The notes beneath the pieces are model-generated. The model was not told the DNA's origin and searched no databases. It saw only the letters and a program-made list of their open reading frames with translations. Made by a program: the position numbers and the translations under genes. A stretch of 58,400 nt of DNA. It comes from Bacteroidales bacterium. Lineage in GTDB: Bacteria; Bacteroidota; Bacteroidia; Bacteroidales; Marinilabiliaceae. Each line of letters begins with the position of its first letter. Position 1 is the first letter of the stretch. Where the stretch lies: NCBI GenBank assembly GCA_024401335.1, contig JAKSLH010000018.1:1-58400 (forward strand). The letters are read 5' to 3'. Positions 18,369-58,322 of this stretch are shown here, one piece after another.

Positions 18369-18490
18369 CAGGCGAAAAAAACTGGAGACCGAGATGAAAG
18401 AGGTAGAAGAATGAAAGAAATATTGCCAATGGCATAGCATACAAAGAGGCAATAAAAACAGATCCAGCGTAAAAGTAAAAAATCCTTAAA

Positions 18491-18551
18491 ATAGACGAAA
18501 TCGTGCATTTCGTTGCAAAATTCCGGCATTTCGTAGCAAAATTTTTTTTGA
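18491..18551 (+). repeat. 61-bp inverted repeat, left copy
   Basis: Matches the reverse complement of 23042-23102 at 59 of 61 positions. Internally it carries a tandem direct repeat, GCATTTCGTTGCAAAA then TTCCG then GCATTTCGTAGCAAAA, so it may be a multi-site operator. It ends 15 bp before a TACATTTG promoter box that faces into the module. Confidence 0.9.
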
Positions 18552-18566
18552 CACAACTGCATGATC

Positions 18567-18574
18567 TACATTTG
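18567..18574 (+). promoter_or_regulatory. TACATTTG promoter box of the left candidate RNA
   Basis: Perfect TAnnTTTG, followed by GTGAAGGTTG (18579-18588). The same pair of elements occurs in mirror orientation at 23026-23005. A transcript would start at about 18581. Confidence 0.6.
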
Positions 18575-18580
18575 TGGCGT

Positions 18581-18737
18581 GAAGGTTGAAAAACCTCCAT
18601 GTTTACGTATTACATGCGATTTGATTGTTAACAAAGTCTTTGATTATTAAGCCGGATTGACGTGAGTCATTATTCGTGCTAAAAGCGTTTCCCTAATCCG
18701 AGTTATCTGGAAATATCTAGATAACTCGGATTTTTTA
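18581..18737 (+). ncRNA. Candidate small RNA A (promoter plus terminator, no ORF)
   Basis: About 155 nt between a promoter box and a strong terminator, with no convincing reading frame. Features in order: GTGAAGGTTG at the 5' end, a TGAC-GTGA-GTCA mini-hairpin (18658-18669), AGCGTTT (18684-18690) and the terminator. The minus-strand transcript at 23012-22841 has the same elements in the same order, which suggests a family rather than chance. It could instead be an attenuated leader for the DUF4248 genes downstream. I know of no named RNA family that matches. Confidence 0.5.
18695..18737 (+). terminator. Strong terminator ending candidate RNA A
   Basis: Perfect 14-bp stem AATCCGAGTTATCT (18695-18708) with AGATAACTCGGATT (18719-18732), loop GGAAATATCT, followed by T6 overlapping the stem end. 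No protein gene lies directly upstream on +, which supports a non-coding transcript. Confidence 0.85.
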
Positions 18738-18891
18738 TGACACATAAGGACGCGGATGATAACAGAAGACCACATAGAAACACTGATGAGTATGATTAAG
18801 GAACAATATAGTACAACAATGTACACTATCTGTCACTATGTTCGAATAGCGCGGACAGGTTATGCCATCTTTGTGAAAAAAAACGAAACAC

Positions 18892-19089
18892 ATGAGAGCA
18901 ATAACCAAACAACAGTTAGCCCGCAGAGCCGAAGTATCCATGACAACCCTCTGCCGTTGGCTCAAGTCTATCGAACACAAATTGACGCCCCTGGGATACA
19001 CCCGTACTATGAGAGTCCTGCCACCCAATATCGCCAAGGTCATAATAGAGCATTTCTGTATTGACATTACAGATGAAAACAATTTATAA
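18892..19089 (+). CDS. DUF4248-like small helix-turn-helix protein
   Basis: 65 residues. KQQLARRAEVSMTTLCRWL looks like a helix-turn-helix start, followed by LGYTRTMRVLPPNIAKVI, the pattern (GY...r.l.p.q...I...) of DUF4248 proteins. These occur by the dozen in Bacteroides and Prevotella, often near DUF4373 genes. Probably DNA-binding (inference). It is followed 22 bp later by a second, divergent copy. An overlapping 102-aa frame from 18756 in another phase has no family character and was not chosen. Confidence 0.65.
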   Translation: MRAITKQQLARRAEVSMTTLCRWLKSIEHKLTPLGYTRTMRVLPPNIAKVIIEHFCIDITDENNL

Positions 19090-19111
19090 TCATATATAAA
19101 CGCAATACTTC

Positions 19112-19372
19112 ATGGGCATGAACATGATTTATCTTGCAAAATGCAAGCTTGCGCAAAAATGCGCTATCGTCACTCCACGCTATTTCTGGTCTGAGGTGCA
19201 CGCCAACGCGTCACTCATGGCTCAGCTCGAGTCGCTGGGCTATAACCGCAAAACCCGCACACTCACCGTTCGGCAGGCCGAAGTCATCGCCGCCTACTAC
19301 GGAGTAGATCTCTACGACGATGATAATAGTTCTAACACAAAAACGACTGCGTCATGGCCAGCAAGGGACTGA
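19112..19372 (+). CDS. Second DUF4248-like protein
   Basis: 86 residues, or slightly fewer if one of the Met codons at 3 or 5 is the start. It resembles the preceding protein in its C-terminal half: LESLGYNRKTRTLTVRQAEV, then IAAYYGVDLY. The stop lies inside the next gene (overlap 19 bp), so translation is probably coupled to the DUF4373 gene. A role as a DNA-binding accessory of that protein is inference from context only. Confidence 0.65.
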   Translation: MGMNMIYLAKCKLAQKCAIVTPRYFWSEVHANASLMAQLESLGYNRKTRTLTVRQAEVIAAYYGVDLYDDDNSSNTKTTASWPARD

Positions 19373-20283
19373 ACTACTACCAGGCAGAGACCAACCGCTA
19401 CTGCAACATCAGGACGAAAAAGCTGAAACGCAGATTCGGTGCACTAGGATATGTAGTATTTGACTACATCCTCAACGAGATCTTCCGCGTAGGTGGATGT
19501 TATGTGACATGGGACGAGGCGACATCATTCGACGTATCGGAATACTGGGGATGCACCGAGGAAGAAGTCAACGCCATTGTTGACTACTGCGCCGACGAAG
19601 GACTCTTCTGCCGGCGTCTGCTAGACGAACATCATGTACTCTCCTCAGTCGATATACAAGAGATGTATGTCGAGATATGCAAACGCAGCCATCGCAGACC
19701 CGACGTACCCCAGCTCTATGCCCTCACCGATGACAAGTCGACAGATGTCAAGACAAAAGGCGCTGATGTCAAGACAAACACCCCTTATGTCGATACTGAG
19801 GCGACAAATAAAAGAAAAGGAAACACTAGTTATGCTGATGCTGACGTGCTAGACCCACGCACCACCGGCATTACCTTGGCCAGCGACACGGCCTCGATGA
19901 CAGCCCGGCAGCAGATTGACCACTGGACGACAAAGCTCAAAGACAACACACAATGGCTCGTCGACACAGCCAACCAGTATATGCTACCTCACGACACGTT
20001 CATCAGAGCCCTCGACATGTTTGCCGAAGACAAAAGAACAGACTGCGCAGCGCCGATATACCTGACGGAACATGACTTCGTGCGACATTTCAAGAACTGG
20101 CTCTCAAAAAAACGTCATGAATATGCAGGAGGCAAAGCAGATCACCAAACGTCAAAGAACAACAAGAAACATGCAGACAATAGAATCGATAATAACACGG
20201 AATGTCTCCTGCGGGGACTCACTTCGGCCTACGTCGCCCTCACCAATGGTGCAGAAGCTGCTAGCCGAAATGCCCAGATATGA
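19354..20283 (+). CDS. DUF4373 (Lin1244/Lin1753-like) replisome-organiser-type protein
   Basis: 309 residues. The N-terminal about 110 residues match the DUF4373 pattern: GLNYYQAETNRYCNIR, KKLKRRFGALGYVVFDYIL, GGCYVTWDEAT, then SSVDIQEMYVE. This domain is found in phage and mobile-element proteins resembling replisome organisers (winged helix). The middle is a low-complexity, Thr/Asp-rich linker (about 125-190). The C-terminal part (HDTFIRALDMFAEDKRTDC, then HFKNWLSKKRHE) resembles a DnaB/DnaC-interacting tail. No transposase, integrase or structural genes accompany it, so this is an isolated replication-type module. The DUF is assigned by recall of the family pattern. Confidence 0.7.
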   Translation: MASKGLNYYQAETNRYCNIRTKKLKRRFGALGYVVFDYILNEIFRVGGCYVTWDEATSFDVSEYWGCTEEEVNAIVDYCADEGLFCRRLLDEHHVLSSVDIQEMYVEICKRSHRRPDVPQLYALTDDKSTDVKTKGADVKTNTPYVDTEATNKRKGNTSYADADVLDPRTTGITLASDTASMTARQQIDHWTTKLKDNTQWLVDTANQYMLPHDTFIRALDMFAEDKRTDCAAPIYLTEHDFVRHFKNWLSKKRHEYAGGKADHQTSKNNKKHADNRIDNNTECLLRGLTSAYVALTNGAEAASRNAQI

Positions 20284-20791
20284 ACTCTTCGCCCAGAAGT
20301 ATAAGTCGGACATGCAAGAACGGTGTGCTCTGCGCAGGGAGCAGTCGCTCACCTGCGATGCGCCAACCCTAAACACCCTATCGTCGGCCTATGGTGAAGA
20401 TGCCGCCACAGCATGGATAATGGCCCAGATGGCAAGCATAGTGCTTCTCACCGGCGTCGCCAAGGGTAATCAGACAACGACGATGCAGCTCACGTCGGGC
20501 GCGAGAGTAGTGCTAGCCAACTATGGGTCGCTCAAGGCCACAGAATTCATGCTCTTCTGCTCGCAGTTTAAAGCAGGCTTGTATGACCATTTCTATGGCA
20601 CGTTTGACGTACTAGTCATCACCACGTCCCTAAAAGACTTCACACAGCAGATACGCAAAGAGAAAGCCTCCATCATCGAGAGAAGACTCAAGGAGCGACG
20701 CGAAGCCGAGAGGCGAGAACGCGAGAACGACAACAGACTGCTGACGTATGAAGAATATCTAGCCATCAAGAACAAGAGTGACAGCAAATGA
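20117..20791 (+). CDS. Conserved protein following DUF4373, function unknown
   Basis: About 224 residues from the Met at 20117 (an alternative start at 20072 gives 239). It overlaps the DUF4373 gene in another frame by over 150 bp. That is a lot, so the true start may be as late as about 20275 (MPRYELFAQ). The core (AATAWIMAQMASIVLLTGVA) and a long charged C-terminal helix (RRLKERREAERRERENDNRL) resemble proteins that accompany DUF4373 in Bacteroidales, possibly DUF6633. That assignment is uncertain. The end LLTYEEYLAIKNKSD is typical of this kind of protein. No catalytic motif is seen. Confidence 0.6.
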   Translation: MNMQEAKQITKRQRTTRNMQTIESIITRNVSCGDSLRPTSPSPMVQKLLAEMPRYELFAQKYKSDMQERCALRREQSLTCDAPTLNTLSSAYGEDAATAWIMAQMASIVLLTGVAKGNQTTTMQLTSGARVVLANYGSLKATEFMLFCSQFKAGLYDHFYGTFDVLVITTSLKDFTQQIRKEKASIIERRLKERREAERRERENDNRLLTYEEYLAIKNKSDSK

Positions 20792-20895
20792 CATGCACAC
20801 GCACAGGACAAGAAGAAAGAGGCGAGACGTAATTCGTTGAAAGAAAAAAACTTGGCATTAGAGCTTTCTGTTGATGAAGGCTCTATTTTTTTTTG

Positions 20896-20903
20896 TACAT
20901 TTG
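20896..20903 (+). promoter_or_regulatory. TACATTTG promoter box for the chemoreceptor-like gene
   Basis: TACATTTG, a perfect TAnnTTTG, lies 26 bp before the ATG at 20929, with a T-rich stretch upstream. It implies the receptor gene has its own promoter within the module. Confidence 0.6.
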
Positions 20904-20928
20904 CGGTGTCCACAAACGAACCACTGAG

Positions 20929-22773
20929 ATGATATTCAATTTAGACAAGAGATTTAAAAGGCTGTTCGATCTCAAGCGTATAAGCACAAGGTTGACCCTC
21001 TTTATTACTATACTTACTACAGTTATTTGCATCATACTCACTCTTGTGGCGCAGCTGCGAGTCTATTCTCACCAGATAGCCCAGACGCAGGAGGTACTGT
21101 TGCGCGACGCAGATTTCCTTGCCCGTCAATTCCGCTCGATGCTGAACACCAGACAGTCGCAGGTCTCTTTGTTCGCTCAGTCGGGAGAGCTGAAGCGCTT
21201 GGGAAGCATTGACGTGAACGACAGAAGAATAGAGAAAATCATCGGCACTATCAATGAGATGGCCAAGGGAGACGCGATAATACGCAATTTCTTCATCGCC
21301 GACACCGAGGGCAACTGCATCTCATCTACGATGGAGCATTTCGACATCTCAGACCGCGAATATTTCCAGGCATGTATCGAGTCGCGTGCGGTTACTCAAC
21401 CCGTTTTGGTTCAGAACAGGCTATCGGAGGAAAACACACTCATCTATTCAGCCCCAATCATCAATGACAATGACGAACTCATCGGTGTCTTCGTCGAAGG
21501 AGTTGCCGCCAACGAGTTCTCATACCAGATTATGCAGATCAAATTTGGCACTCAGTCGCCATTCATCATCCGTCGCGATGGTATGGTCATTGCACATGAG
21601 GTGCCAGAACTAGTGATGATATCATGTAACATGCTGAACGACGAATACCTGCACGACTTCATCGTGGAAGCGACAGCCAATGGAAGAGGGAATGGCATGT
21701 ATAACTACCAGGGCGTAGATATCATTACAGGCTACTGTCCTATAGACGGGACAGACTGGATAGTATCCATTCAATGCGTCAAGAGCGAGATATTGGTGAA
21801 TTTCTGGGAGACGGCATTTATGCTTTTCTGGGTCTGCGTACTTATCATTGTCGTGGCTGCATTCATGGCCTATTGGATAGGCAAGTCTATTGGCCGACCA
21901 GTGAATATCGTATCACGTGCTACAGCCGCTATTCAGGCAGGTGATTTGACTGGCGCATGGCTCACTGATAAATATCGCAAATACCTCACTAAGCACGAAG
22001 ACGAGATATGTATGTTGGGCAAGTCGTTCATTGACCTGACAGAACGTCTGCATGCTGTTATACATGATATACAGGATACCTGTTCGCAGGTGCTCGATAC
22101 GGCCTCTCGCATCAATGATGCCAGCAAGAGCGTGTCGACAGGCTCTAACTCTCAGGCGGCGTCGGCCGAAGAGGTGGCTTCTACCATCGAGGAGATAGCT
22201 TCCAACATCACACAGAATGCCATGAATGCACAGCGCACATCAAAGATAGCAGAGCAGTCGGTGAAGAACAGCCAGAATGGCTTGGAGGTGGTCAACAGCA
22301 CAATAGAGAAGATGCACACCATAGCCGACAAGATATCTGTGGTAGAGAATATCGCCAAACAAACCAATATCCTAGCCCTTAACGCGTCGGTAGAGGCTGC
22401 TCGCGCCGGTCAGGCGGGCACAGGCTTTGCTGTCGTGGCGGGTGAGGTGCGTAAGTTGGCCGAGTTGAGCAAGGCGTCGGCCGATGAGATAATGATGATT
22501 GTAGATGAGAGCTCTAAGGCTTCTGAGAAATGTGGTGAGGTGATATCTTCCCTCGTGCCTGAGATAGAACAGACAGGATCGCTCGTCAACGAGATAGCCG
22601 CCGCTAGTAGAGAACAGGACCTCGGTGCTCAGCAGATAAATACCGCTATATCCGACATGAACCAGATAACGCAGCAAAACGCTGCCGCTGCCGAGAAACT
22701 GACTTATATGGCAGATAACTTGTCTTCACTGGCCGACAAGCTCGAAAAGGCCGTTGGCTACTTTAAAATCTGA
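20929..22773 (+). CDS. Methyl-accepting chemotaxis-like transducer 1 (dCache type)
   Basis: About 614 residues from ATG 20929; the frame is open upstream to a TTG that is a poor start. Architecture: TM1 at about 22-44, an extracytoplasmic region to about 285 resembling a double-Cache sensor ([20 protein letters not shown], then [15 protein letters not shown]), TM2 at about 290-315, HAMP, then the signalling coiled coil. The hairpin tip [17 protein letters not shown] is nearly canonical. There is no C-terminal CheR/CheB tether. No cheA/W/Y/R/B genes are in the window, and gut Bacteroidales normally lack flagella, so the output is unclear. It sits inside the inverted-repeat module. Confidence 0.92.
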
Positions 22774-22840
22774 TACGTCACAGGCCATTTTCAGCAGGAC
22801 CCGCCCTAATCAGGATTCTACCCGCTGCAACAAAGGAATA

Positions 22841-22872
22841 AAAAAAGAATGTCAGGCTCTCACCTGACATTC
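22841..22872 (-). terminator. Terminator of candidate RNA B
   Basis: Perfect 10-bp stem GAATGTCAGG/CCTGACATTC, loop CTCTCA. The T-run (A6 on +, 22841-22846) follows only on the minus strand, so it terminates a minus-strand transcript although no minus-strand gene is present. Confidence 0.7.
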
Positions 22873-23012
22873 CCAATGAAAAAAACTACAAACGCTAAGT
22901 GACTTCTCGTCATTACGCCTAATGTTAAACCTCTATTTATGAAAAACTATTCTTCAATCTATCCTTTAAGTAACGTGTAAGGGTCGTCCGCATCACTGTT
23001 TTCCCAACCTTC
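22841..23012 (-). ncRNA. Candidate small RNA B, mirror partner of RNA A
   Basis: On the minus strand the right inverted repeat is followed by TACATTTG (23026-23019), GTGAAGGTTG (23014-23005), a TGAC-gagaa-GTCA mini-hairpin (22912-22900), AGCGTTT (22896-22890) and a hairpin with a T-run (22872-22841). This is the same order of elements as in RNA A, although the sequence between them has diverged. No minus-strand reading frame fits. The transcript would be about 170 nt and would run toward the 3' end of the receptor gene. Confidence 0.5.
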
Positions 23013-23018
23013 ACATTA

Positions 23019-23026
23019 CAAATGTA
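23019..23026 (-). promoter_or_regulatory. TACATTTG promoter box of candidate RNA B
   Basis: Minus-strand TACATTTG, a perfect TAnnTTTG, 16 bp inside the right inverted repeat. It mirrors the box at 18567. Confidence 0.55.
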
Positions 23027-23041
23027 TGTGATGTATTTTTA

Positions 23042-23102
23042 TCAAAAAAACTTTTGCTACCAAATGCCGGAATTTTGCAACGAAATGCACGATTTCGTCT
23101 AT
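23042..23102 (-). repeat. 61-bp inverted repeat, right copy
   Basis: Reverse complement of 18491-18551 with 2 mismatches. Beyond it, 23103-23393 has no gene that I can see. The DUF4867 start follows, with only a weak promoter-like box near 23289. Confidence 0.9.
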
Positions 23103-23393
23103 ATTATGATTTGTTAACAAATGGTTTTTGCAGCCTCAGAGGGTGCTTTTTTCAAAAAAAACGTGTCTGCTGATGTCTCTCAGTGCTAATGCACTTGTAT
23201 TGTAAGACGGATTATTTGTATAGAATCTAAAATAAAGGGGAGGGAATAAGAAAAGACGGTCAACAGGTTGTGAGATTCTATGATTAACGTATCTTTACAT
23301 CGTCGGATGCCTATTTGGGGGGCGTCGAATAGAAAAGAAAACAAAAAGGCTTAGGGAAGTTCCCAATGGCCAATAATTAATGAGCATTAAAAT

Positions 23394-24017
23394 ATGGAAA
23401 TCAAGAAAATCACAGATCCCGCATTCAGAAAATACGGTCGTCTCGTAACAAATGTCGATTTTACAGAACTCATCGAGGCTCTCAAGACTAAGACTCCTAT
23501 GCCAGAGGGTGTAGGCTATGAGCCATCGGTTGCCGCTTTGGAGGCTACTGCAACAGCAAAGCAGCTTAAGACTATCACTTACGGTGAGCTCCCTATCGAA
23601 GTAGGCTACTGCAATGGTCACAACACAAAGCTTAACGCTCTCGAATATCACAGAAATTCAGAGATCAACGTTGCTGCTACTGACGCAGTGCTCCTCGTAG
23701 GCATGCAGCAGGATATTGCAGACGACTTCACATATGACACAGCAAAGGTTGAGGCATTCCTTCTTCCTGCTGGTCAGGCTGCAGAAATCTATGCGACAAC
23801 ACTCCACTATGCTCCATGCTCGTTGTCACCAGAGGGCTTCAAGGTTGGTATCGTGCTTCCTGCTGGTACAAACTACCCATTGGATGAGGCTCACAAGCCT
23901 GGCGAGGACAAGCTCATCACTGCTAAGAACAAGTGGCTCATTGGTCACAAGGAAGGCGGTCTTGACGCTAACGCATTTATCGGTCTCAAAGGAGAGAATA
24001 TCGATATAGCAAAGTAA
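23394..24017 (+). CDS. DUF4867 family cupin-like protein
   Basis: 207 residues, soluble, without a signal peptide. EIGYCNGHNTKLNALEYHRN-like and LPAGQAAEIYATTLHYAPCS segments fit DUF4867, a beta-rich family related to ureidoglycolate-lyase/cupin folds and sometimes found beside sugar-metabolism genes. The His/Glu-containing strand (YHRNSEI) could bind metal (inference). Strong codon bias suggests good expression. It is a single gene between the inverted-repeat module and a strong terminator. The reaction is unknown. Confidence 0.8.
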   Translation: MEIKKITDPAFRKYGRLVTNVDFTELIEALKTKTPMPEGVGYEPSVAALEATATAKQLKTITYGELPIEVGYCNGHNTKLNALEYHRNSEINVAATDAVLLVGMQQDIADDFTYDTAKVEAFLLPAGQAAEIYATTLHYAPCSLSPEGFKVGIVLPAGTNYPLDEAHKPGEDKLITAKNKWLIGHKEGGLDANAFIGLKGENIDIAK

Positions 24018-57981: not shown

Positions 57982-58009
57982 ATTATCAGTTAAGTACACC
58001 ATATATGTC

Positions 58010-58063
58010 AAAATGCACTGTTAGAGTGCATTTTTTCGCAGAACATGCACTATCAGAGTGCAT
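58010..58063. terminator. Two similar hairpins in tandem
   Basis: AAAATGCACT-gttag-AGTGCATTTT (58010-58034) and ATGCACT-atcag-AGTGCAT (58045-58063) are perfect stems with the same core. They separate the GT4 remnant from the GT2 gene, and either could end or attenuate the polysaccharide transcript. Confidence 0.6.
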
Positions 58064-58064
58064 T

Positions 58065-58322
58065 TCAGACACATTTTATCAAATCACTAAACAACTTACA
58101 CCACTTCTGCATCACAACTTCACGGTCGAACTTATGGACGCTCTGGTAGGCGTTATCTGCAAGTCGCTTACGCTCTTCTCTTGATGTAATCAATGTAGCT
58201 AGTTTATCTGCATAGGCATCAACATCGCCAAACTTAACGATATAGCCATCTACCCCATCACTGATGATATCGTGCACACCACCAAGCTGATCCATCTGTA
58301 TGGTGAAATAGAGTAGTGTCAC
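58065..58322 (-). pseudogene. C-terminal fragment of a GT4 glycosyltransferase
   Basis: 85 codons from a GTG that overlaps the upstream stop (GTGA). From residue about 13 it reads GGVHDIISDGVDGYIVKFGD, AYADKLATLITSREERKRLA, the last quarter of a GT4 enzyme. The usual preceding Rossmann strands and E-x7-E motif are absent; the first dozen residues are unrelated. Too short to work alone. Best read as a remnant left by gene replacement in the locus. Confidence 0.75.

Follow-up and report, generated by a model that had tools for sequence, protein, structure and literature searches.

In enterobacteria, the sigma-E small RNAs (sRNAs) RybB and MicA are switched on together with the HtrA protease (htrA = degP) by envelope stress. 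Here we analyse a locus of a Bacteroidales bacterium (family Marinilabiliaceae; assembly GCA_024401335.1) in which two sRNA genes, L and R, are predicted inside the arms of a 61-bp inverted repeat; 'the window' is the whole stretch analysed, 58,400 nt on contig JAKSLH010000018.1 (contig C10 of the 33 in this genome of 2.7 Mb, 84.6% complete). The explanation that we favour, with somewhat better than even confidence, is that L and R are paralogous sRNA genes behind a common regulator array, probably stress-regulated and of the FopS-like sibling kind. If this is right, they resemble RybB and MicA in being turned on together with HtrA by envelope stress; they differ in sigma factor and in using a DNA-repeat array, and their link to stress is one that we infer from shared DNA only.

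The FopS family of Bacteroides thetaiotaomicron consists of paralogous sRNAs with canonical sigma-ABfr promoters, a conserved 5' part, a diverged remainder and a terminator; in the part of the paper available, expression is linked to stress and an additional regulator is proposed (PMC11697453). As predicted, L and R share this layout (several sRNA genes per genome, sigma-ABfr promoters, a conserved 5' part followed by a diverged one, a terminator). According to the same part of the paper, the 14-member FopS family is conserved throughout Bacteroidaceae, whereas L and R are two, with none elsewhere in the sets searched; the FopS 5' seed is predicted to be single-stranded, whereas the common 5' end of L and R is predicted to be paired. 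GibS is likewise an intergenic Bacteroidota sRNA, and its promoter motif PM2 also lies upstream of stress genes; PM2 is near-palindromic with elements at -10/-30 in the excerpt available, whereas L and R have a 21-bp direct-repeat array upstream of a canonical -7 box (PMC7366714). SnoA of B. thetaiotaomicron is a stress RNA locus acting with a transcription factor but is antisense to the hcp promoter, and the accessible text of the preprint reports no pair or repeat array (PMC13370916). Sibling sRNAs, that is, related pairs in one genome, appear in the available portions of a general account and of work on Neisseria (PMC4211561, PMC9973317); L and R are likened to them by kind, not by sequence.

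Two predicted RNA genes inside an inverted repeat

The features of the two units are as follows.

18491..18551, + strand: left arm, read as the upstream control array of RNA L; 59/61 to the right arm, with two 21-bp units whose end is the T-run/TTTG at -33
18567..18574, + strand: -7 box TACATTTG of the left RNA promoter, sigma-ABfr type TAnnTTTG (from sequence)
18579..18738, + strand: predicted small RNA L, about 160 nt, start GTGAAGGTTG (promoter, terminator, fold z -5.3)
18577..18602, + strand: predicted 5' hairpin of RNA L (-10.2 kcal/mol, z -3.55)
18650..18680, + strand: predicted 3' hairpin of RNA L, TGAC-GTGA-GTCA (fold z -2.29)
18684-18690, + strand: AGCGTTT of RNA L, 3' of the TGAC hairpin
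18695..18738, + strand: intrinsic terminator of RNA L (17-bp stem and T-run)
23042..23102, - strand: right arm, read as the upstream control array of RNA R (repeat match to the left arm)
23019..23026, - strand: -7 box TACATTTG of the right RNA promoter (from sequence)
22838..23014, - strand: predicted small RNA R, about 177 nt, start GTGAAGGTTG (promoter, terminator, fold z -1.6)
22900-22912, - strand: TGAC hairpin of RNA R
22890-22896, - strand: AGCGTTT of RNA R
22840..22874, - strand: intrinsic terminator of RNA R (T-run on the minus strand only)

The arms, 18491-18551 and 23042-23102, are identical at 59 of 61 positions, as the first-pass annotation had stated and as both a repeat search and BLAST confirm (E 5e-31 for the left against the right arm unit in the organism's own genome). 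A weaker match around them reaches 119 nt (18475-18593 and 23000-23118, 83%). Both ends carry, in mirror order inside the arm, TACATTTG, GTGAAGGTTG, a TGAC-loop-GTCA hairpin, AGCGTTT and a terminator, again as described earlier; so does the observation hold that the right-hand terminator has its T-run only on the strand with no protein gene. The box TACATTTG upstream of both RNAs is a canonical sigma-ABfr promoter box, TAnnTTTG being given as the -7 consensus in the part of the source available (PMC7366714). Boxes of this type and the protein families both suggest Bacteroidota.

The identity between the left and right units comes in islands: 10/16 outside the arms, 59/61 in the arms, 8/15 in the spacer (-33 to -7), 8/8 in the -7 box TACATTTG, 1/4 in the discriminator and 10/10 in the first 10 nt of RNA. 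Within the window, the only two copies of GTGAAGGTTG are those at the two RNA starts. The islands of identity fall where a promoter and the start of an RNA would need them, and because the stretches between them are strongly diverged, they point to selection; since the spacer is among the strongly diverged parts, the duplication is probably not recent. An old duplication that stayed under selection would leave such a pattern. In promoter and RNA start, L and R look like two genes of common descent; for the bodies, the case is marginal.

The whole of RNA L folds far better than its shuffles (z -5.3, 0/200 as good), and its hairpins folded alone give z -3.6 (5') and -2.3 (3'). The RNAalifold consensus of the pair has a 5' helix (GTGAAGG with a downstream TTAC), a loose middle helix and the terminator. 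No Rfam family matches L or R at gathering score, in a copy whose FopS model was not checked, and 6S RNA has no Rfam match in 18400-23200 at E<=5; the sole match at E<=5, MIR781, was judged spurious.

The 21-bp array and the search for relatives

The left arm holds two 21-bp direct-repeat units (18498-18518 and 18519-18539) with the core TTTsGTwGCAAAA, and this array is reused in the organism's own genome. BLAST finds two further copies. One, at C2:70095-70132 (E 1.9e-7), has an RDD-family gene on one side and on the other a Trypsin_2-PDZ (HtrA-type) gene, upstream of which it lies; the second, at C2:57483-57523 (E 1.1e-6), is flanked by a SPOR-domain gene and stands upstream of a MoxR-type AAA_3 gene. 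At htrA and moxR the array has the same orientation as upstream of the RNAs. Exact CATTTNGTNGCANAA occurs eight times in the genome: in the four arm units, once at htrA, twice at moxR and at one other site that has no -7 box.

The spacing to the promoter is also shared. A -7 box begins exactly 25 nt past the last unit in both arms (TACATTTG) and, in the -7-like form CATATTTG, at htrA; among nine own-genome sites, those with a -7-like box at 25 nt are three, namely both proximal arm units and htrA. With 87 matches of [TC]ANNTTTG in 116,800 window positions, the agreement at htrA would be about a 1-in-1300 event, an estimate in which C was permitted at the first base only once the htrA box had been seen. 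At moxR, a perfect TAACTTTG begins 57 nt past the array, which is 32 nt (about three helical turns) further than 25 nt. The arm, which the first-pass annotation treated as a frame around the module, is in our preferred reading a control array of 21-bp units close to the promoter, a putative regulator site adjoining RNA polymerase and common to two stress-type genes and two RNAs.

In the literature, four 16-mers of the array were not found in any paper, and nothing was found on an htrA/batI/moxR regulon. Two other repeats were seen along the way: a second, oppositely oriented array of related 21-22-bp units with core GCACTTTCGTAGC upstream of the htrA array (at about 1180-1290 of C2:69000-71200, past the RDD gene), and, near the contig end (window 57990-58080), a different small repeat of GTGCATTT units around TGCACT.

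The arrays, their spacing, the -7 boxes, the terminators and the identity islands can be read from the letters themselves, and the mechanism that we propose builds on them. L and R would descend from one promoter-plus-RNA unit that was duplicated long ago in inverted orientation. For each RNA, transcription would begin at a sigma-ABfr-type promoter, with the two-unit 21-bp direct-repeat array directly adjoining its -33 side, and would stop at the intrinsic terminator. The array would bind a putative regulator, probably an activator contacting RNA polymerase rather than a repressor, which would also serve the htrA-type and moxR-type genes. The HtrA and MoxR families serve stress protection; since the array is shared with genes of these types, envelope or oxidative stress would induce L and R. 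Both RNAs would act by base-pairing with messenger RNAs (mRNAs), the common 5' end being the shared part and the diverged bodies choosing their own targets.

Relatives of the unit were sought in three overlapping sets of genomes: 14 genus-mates, 70 other genomes of the family and 392 other genomes of the order. In the genus-mates, BLAST at E<=0.1 gave only an 18-nt match in one genome, G009 (E 0.024), without the flanks of the unit. The pattern ATTTGN{1,7}GTGAAGGTTG matched six of the 70 family genomes, compared with 10 for a reversed control, and none of the six has TAnnTTTG before the RNA start. A single unit GCATTTCGTWGCAAAA with one mismatch stayed at control level (27/70, against 26 reversed); exact GCATTTCGTWGCAAAA is confined to the organism's own genome among 71 of the family, while TTTNGTNGCAAAA matches all 15 of 15 genus genomes and is uninformative alone. 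The exact two-unit array is absent from a collection of 84,980 species, from which near relatives of the window genome may be left out. In viral contigs it matched one stretch, a TTGCAAAA-rich repeat array unlike the unit, which was rejected; there, TACATTTGN{2,5}GTGAAGGTTG matched seven stretches whose flanks were, by eye, unlike the unit. Of 55 distinct sites compared outside the own genome, one has a -7-like box at 25 nt (G009, behind a serS-like gene), but the match trails a likely serS-like terminator hairpin and was rejected as well.

The first-pass annotation had proposed a covariance-model search for homologues. Run with a model of the pair over 393 order genomes, it found with confidence only the two query copies; the strict filters lose weak matches, and the MAFFT alignment behind the model has the TGAC hairpins one column out of register (a second, shorter alignment placed them worse and was dropped). 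Matches in five of the 392 other order genomes, at E 0.002-0.1 per genome, are at chance level over 393 genomes, have neither RNA start nor array core, and were set aside. The annotation had also held that, without transcripts, homologues of conserved structure or covariation, the pair would reduce to a chance repeat. This was half borne out by the search; the units are not a chance repeat, because the array is reused with fixed spacing.

Neighbouring genes were compared as well. Among the genus-mates, nadD is present in 11 of 14 and DUF4867 in five of 14, and stretches were fetched for 10 of the 11 nadD genes (G002 left out) and all five DUF4867 genes. Neither array core nor RNA start was found in these 15 stretches, three of which reach a contig end within a few hundred bases. 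As a separate observation, DUF4867 (window 23394-24017) has 90-98% identity in the five genus-mates and no match in nine, and nadD only 44-65% in the 11 where it was found; this contrast suggests extreme conservation or transfer of DUF4867.

Several results weigh against the reading of L and R as paralogous, regulated sRNAs. No relative of the unit was found in any set searched, and the predicted RNAs rest on two sequences. A single core pattern is not rare: in the own genome, TTTNGTNGCAAAA has nine matches, compared with five for its reversed control, and CATTTNGTNGCANAA with one mismatch has 24, compared with 11. One of 16 one-mismatch sites, C29:70151, also has a CAnnTTTG box at 25 nt, with genes on both sides reading the other way. 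The htrA copy of the array is alike over only 38 bp, and most regulator sites would tolerate a looser match than 59 of 61 positions, so that gene conversion may have helped to keep the arms alike. RNA R folds little or no better than shuffles, whether whole (z -1.6, 14/200 as good) or as its hairpins alone (z -0.4 and -0.6). Past the first 10 nt the bodies are only marginally alike: with terminators included, 523/1000 shuffled pairs reach the local score and 19/1000 the global one; with terminators excluded, 322/1000 and 54/1000. (A common 4-bp hairpin arm followed by a common 7-mer arises in 4/2000 shuffled pairs, in a test chosen once the features had been seen.) The TGAC hairpin is absent from the consensus fold, where, between the two sequences, 10 of 26 predicted pairs differ on both sides; the terminator accounts for six of these, the middle helix for three and the 5' helix for one. 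Finally, no target stood out when L and R were scanned by duplex energy against the starts of 52 window genes and against htrA and moxR (best z among the 54, -2.54). The islands of identity, and the independent use of the array before htrA- and moxR-type genes, support the earlier proposal that a regulatory-RNA unit was duplicated together with a conserved upstream element; the inversion raised along with it is not supported, so that the first-pass interpretation holds in part.

Around the core site at C29:70151, we also saw two similar neighbour genes (172 and 188 aa) in the same reading direction.

Genes between the arms and alternative explanations

Five open reading frames (ORFs) lie between L and R.

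18892..19089, + strand: DUF4248-like ORF, 65 aa (16.4 bits, below the 27-bit Pfam cut-off)
19112..19372, + strand: DUF4248 ORF, 86 aa (27.5 bits, cut-off 27)
19354..20283, + strand: Lin1244_N (DUF4373-type) phage-like replication-initiation protein, 309 aa (Pfam 2.4e-20)
20072..20791, + strand: DUF6633 protein, up to 239 aa (Pfam 5.6e-16)
20929..22773, + strand: dCache_1-HAMP-MCPsignal chemoreceptor (Pfam)

The earlier gene list stands for one DUF4248 gene and the chemoreceptor. Its first DUF4248 gene falls below the cut-off; its DUF4373 gene is Lin1244_N, the DUF4373 label coming from record annotations; and its 239-aa gene is DUF6633. The 65-aa ORF, though between the RNAs, is not thought to be part of the RNA unit. 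The Lin1244_N protein matches a PHROG replication initiation protein (6e-21) and, distantly, 16 phage records, three of them named Bacteroides phages; pattern matches to its relatives yielded none confirmed, and none in the genus-mates. By these assignments the cassette of Lin1244_N/replication initiation, two DUF4248-like ORFs and DUF6633 is phage-like. The chemoreceptor has its own TACATTTG box (20893-20900), 3' of a terminator-like hairpin of DUF6633. A transcript at a DUF4248 ORF of P. gingivalis appears in the available part of one report (PMC6231650).

An unlikely explanation, though the strongest of the alternatives, is that the RNAs act in cis, L as a terminated leader (attenuator) of a DUF4248 operon and R as an antisense RNA of the chemoreceptor, with a shared promoter as their only likeness. 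L stops about 150 nt upstream of the first DUF4248-like ORF on the same strand, and the BLAST similarity of the units stops at the tenth RNA base. Under R, the + strand hairpin has no T-run, so that chemoreceptor transcripts may traverse R and be complementary to all of it; since no + strand terminator with a T-run was seen from the chemoreceptor stop (22773) to the right arm, the chemoreceptor mRNA may overlap R in antisense, and a hairpin with T-run further on, at about 23130-23152, is weak (z -0.27). Yet the strong stem and T-run of the L terminator have no competing structure in the minimum-energy fold, a CATCTTTG box just upstream of the DUF4248-like ORF could be its own promoter, and the RNA start is common to both units although the two genes to be controlled are unrelated.

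We think it quite improbable that the arms delimit a mobile or satellite-like element with the phage-like DUF4248-Lin1244-DUF6633 cassette as its cargo. Such an element would account for near-perfect 61-bp inverted repeats around a phage-type replication initiator, and the genes beside nadD and DUF4867 do differ among the genus-mate stretches fetched; but no target-site duplication was seen outside the arms, no transposase or integrase is among the family-assigned genes, and the same array stands alone upstream of htrA and moxR. G009 has three DUF6633 genes. Each has an overlapping ORF upstream, which Pfam does not identify as Lin1244_N, and none of these stretches (L059, L060, L061) has the array core or the RNA start, which also speaks against the element, although with other upstream ORFs theirs may be a different cassette. 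In G009, two DUF6633 genes lie at contig starts with near-identical upstream ORFs and then diverge, as if these two loci were multicopy and recombining. L059 contains a small upstream ORF with a smalltalk-protein match (18.4 bits, below the curated cut-off of 24.7) and a 283-aa ORF with only weak helix-turn-helix matches.

That each RNA is the mRNA of a short peptide is very doubtful. The first-pass annotation saw no credible ORF in either transcript and did not list the GTG frames of 23 and 25 codons with which L and R open on their first base (VKVEKPP... and VKVGKTV...). Both open at the common GTGAAGGTT and share VKV-x-K; however, the 10 common bases are identical also at wobble positions, the two peptides part ways immediately afterwards, and translation would have to begin at GTG codons that lack a leader.

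The possible inversion of the 4.5 kb between the arms, also raised earlier, gets hardly any credence as a phase switch: the inverted repeats are long, and invertible promoters drive phase-variable capsule loci in Bacteroides in the part of the source available (PMC10994844), but in such Bacteroidota elements a promoter sits between short inverted repeats and its flip switches a gene outside, whereas here the promoters face inward and no recombinase is among the family-assigned genes inside the arms; because promoters, RNAs and terminators all lie inside and move with the cassette, inversion would leave their relation to it unchanged and only the outside neighbours would differ.

Meaning of a shared array

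A wider reading of the paralogous sRNA pair, which we hold only tentatively and judge less than probable, is a Bacteroidota-lineage envelope-stress regulon in which a putative regulator at the array next to the -33 region turns on HtrA, the MoxR operon and a lineage-specific sRNA pair together. To our knowledge, little work on Bacteroidota other than B. thetaiotaomicron has addressed stress sRNAs or how their transcription is controlled. We rate the predicted L and R as a further case of paralogous Bacteroidota sRNAs, of interest mainly for the regulator array that they share. Common to two predicted sRNA genes, an htrA-type gene and a moxR-type gene, the array gives a handle on the putative regulator, and its sharing predicts which four transcripts should change together. 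The regulon, if true, would do with other components what the sigma-E/RybB-MicA circuit does.

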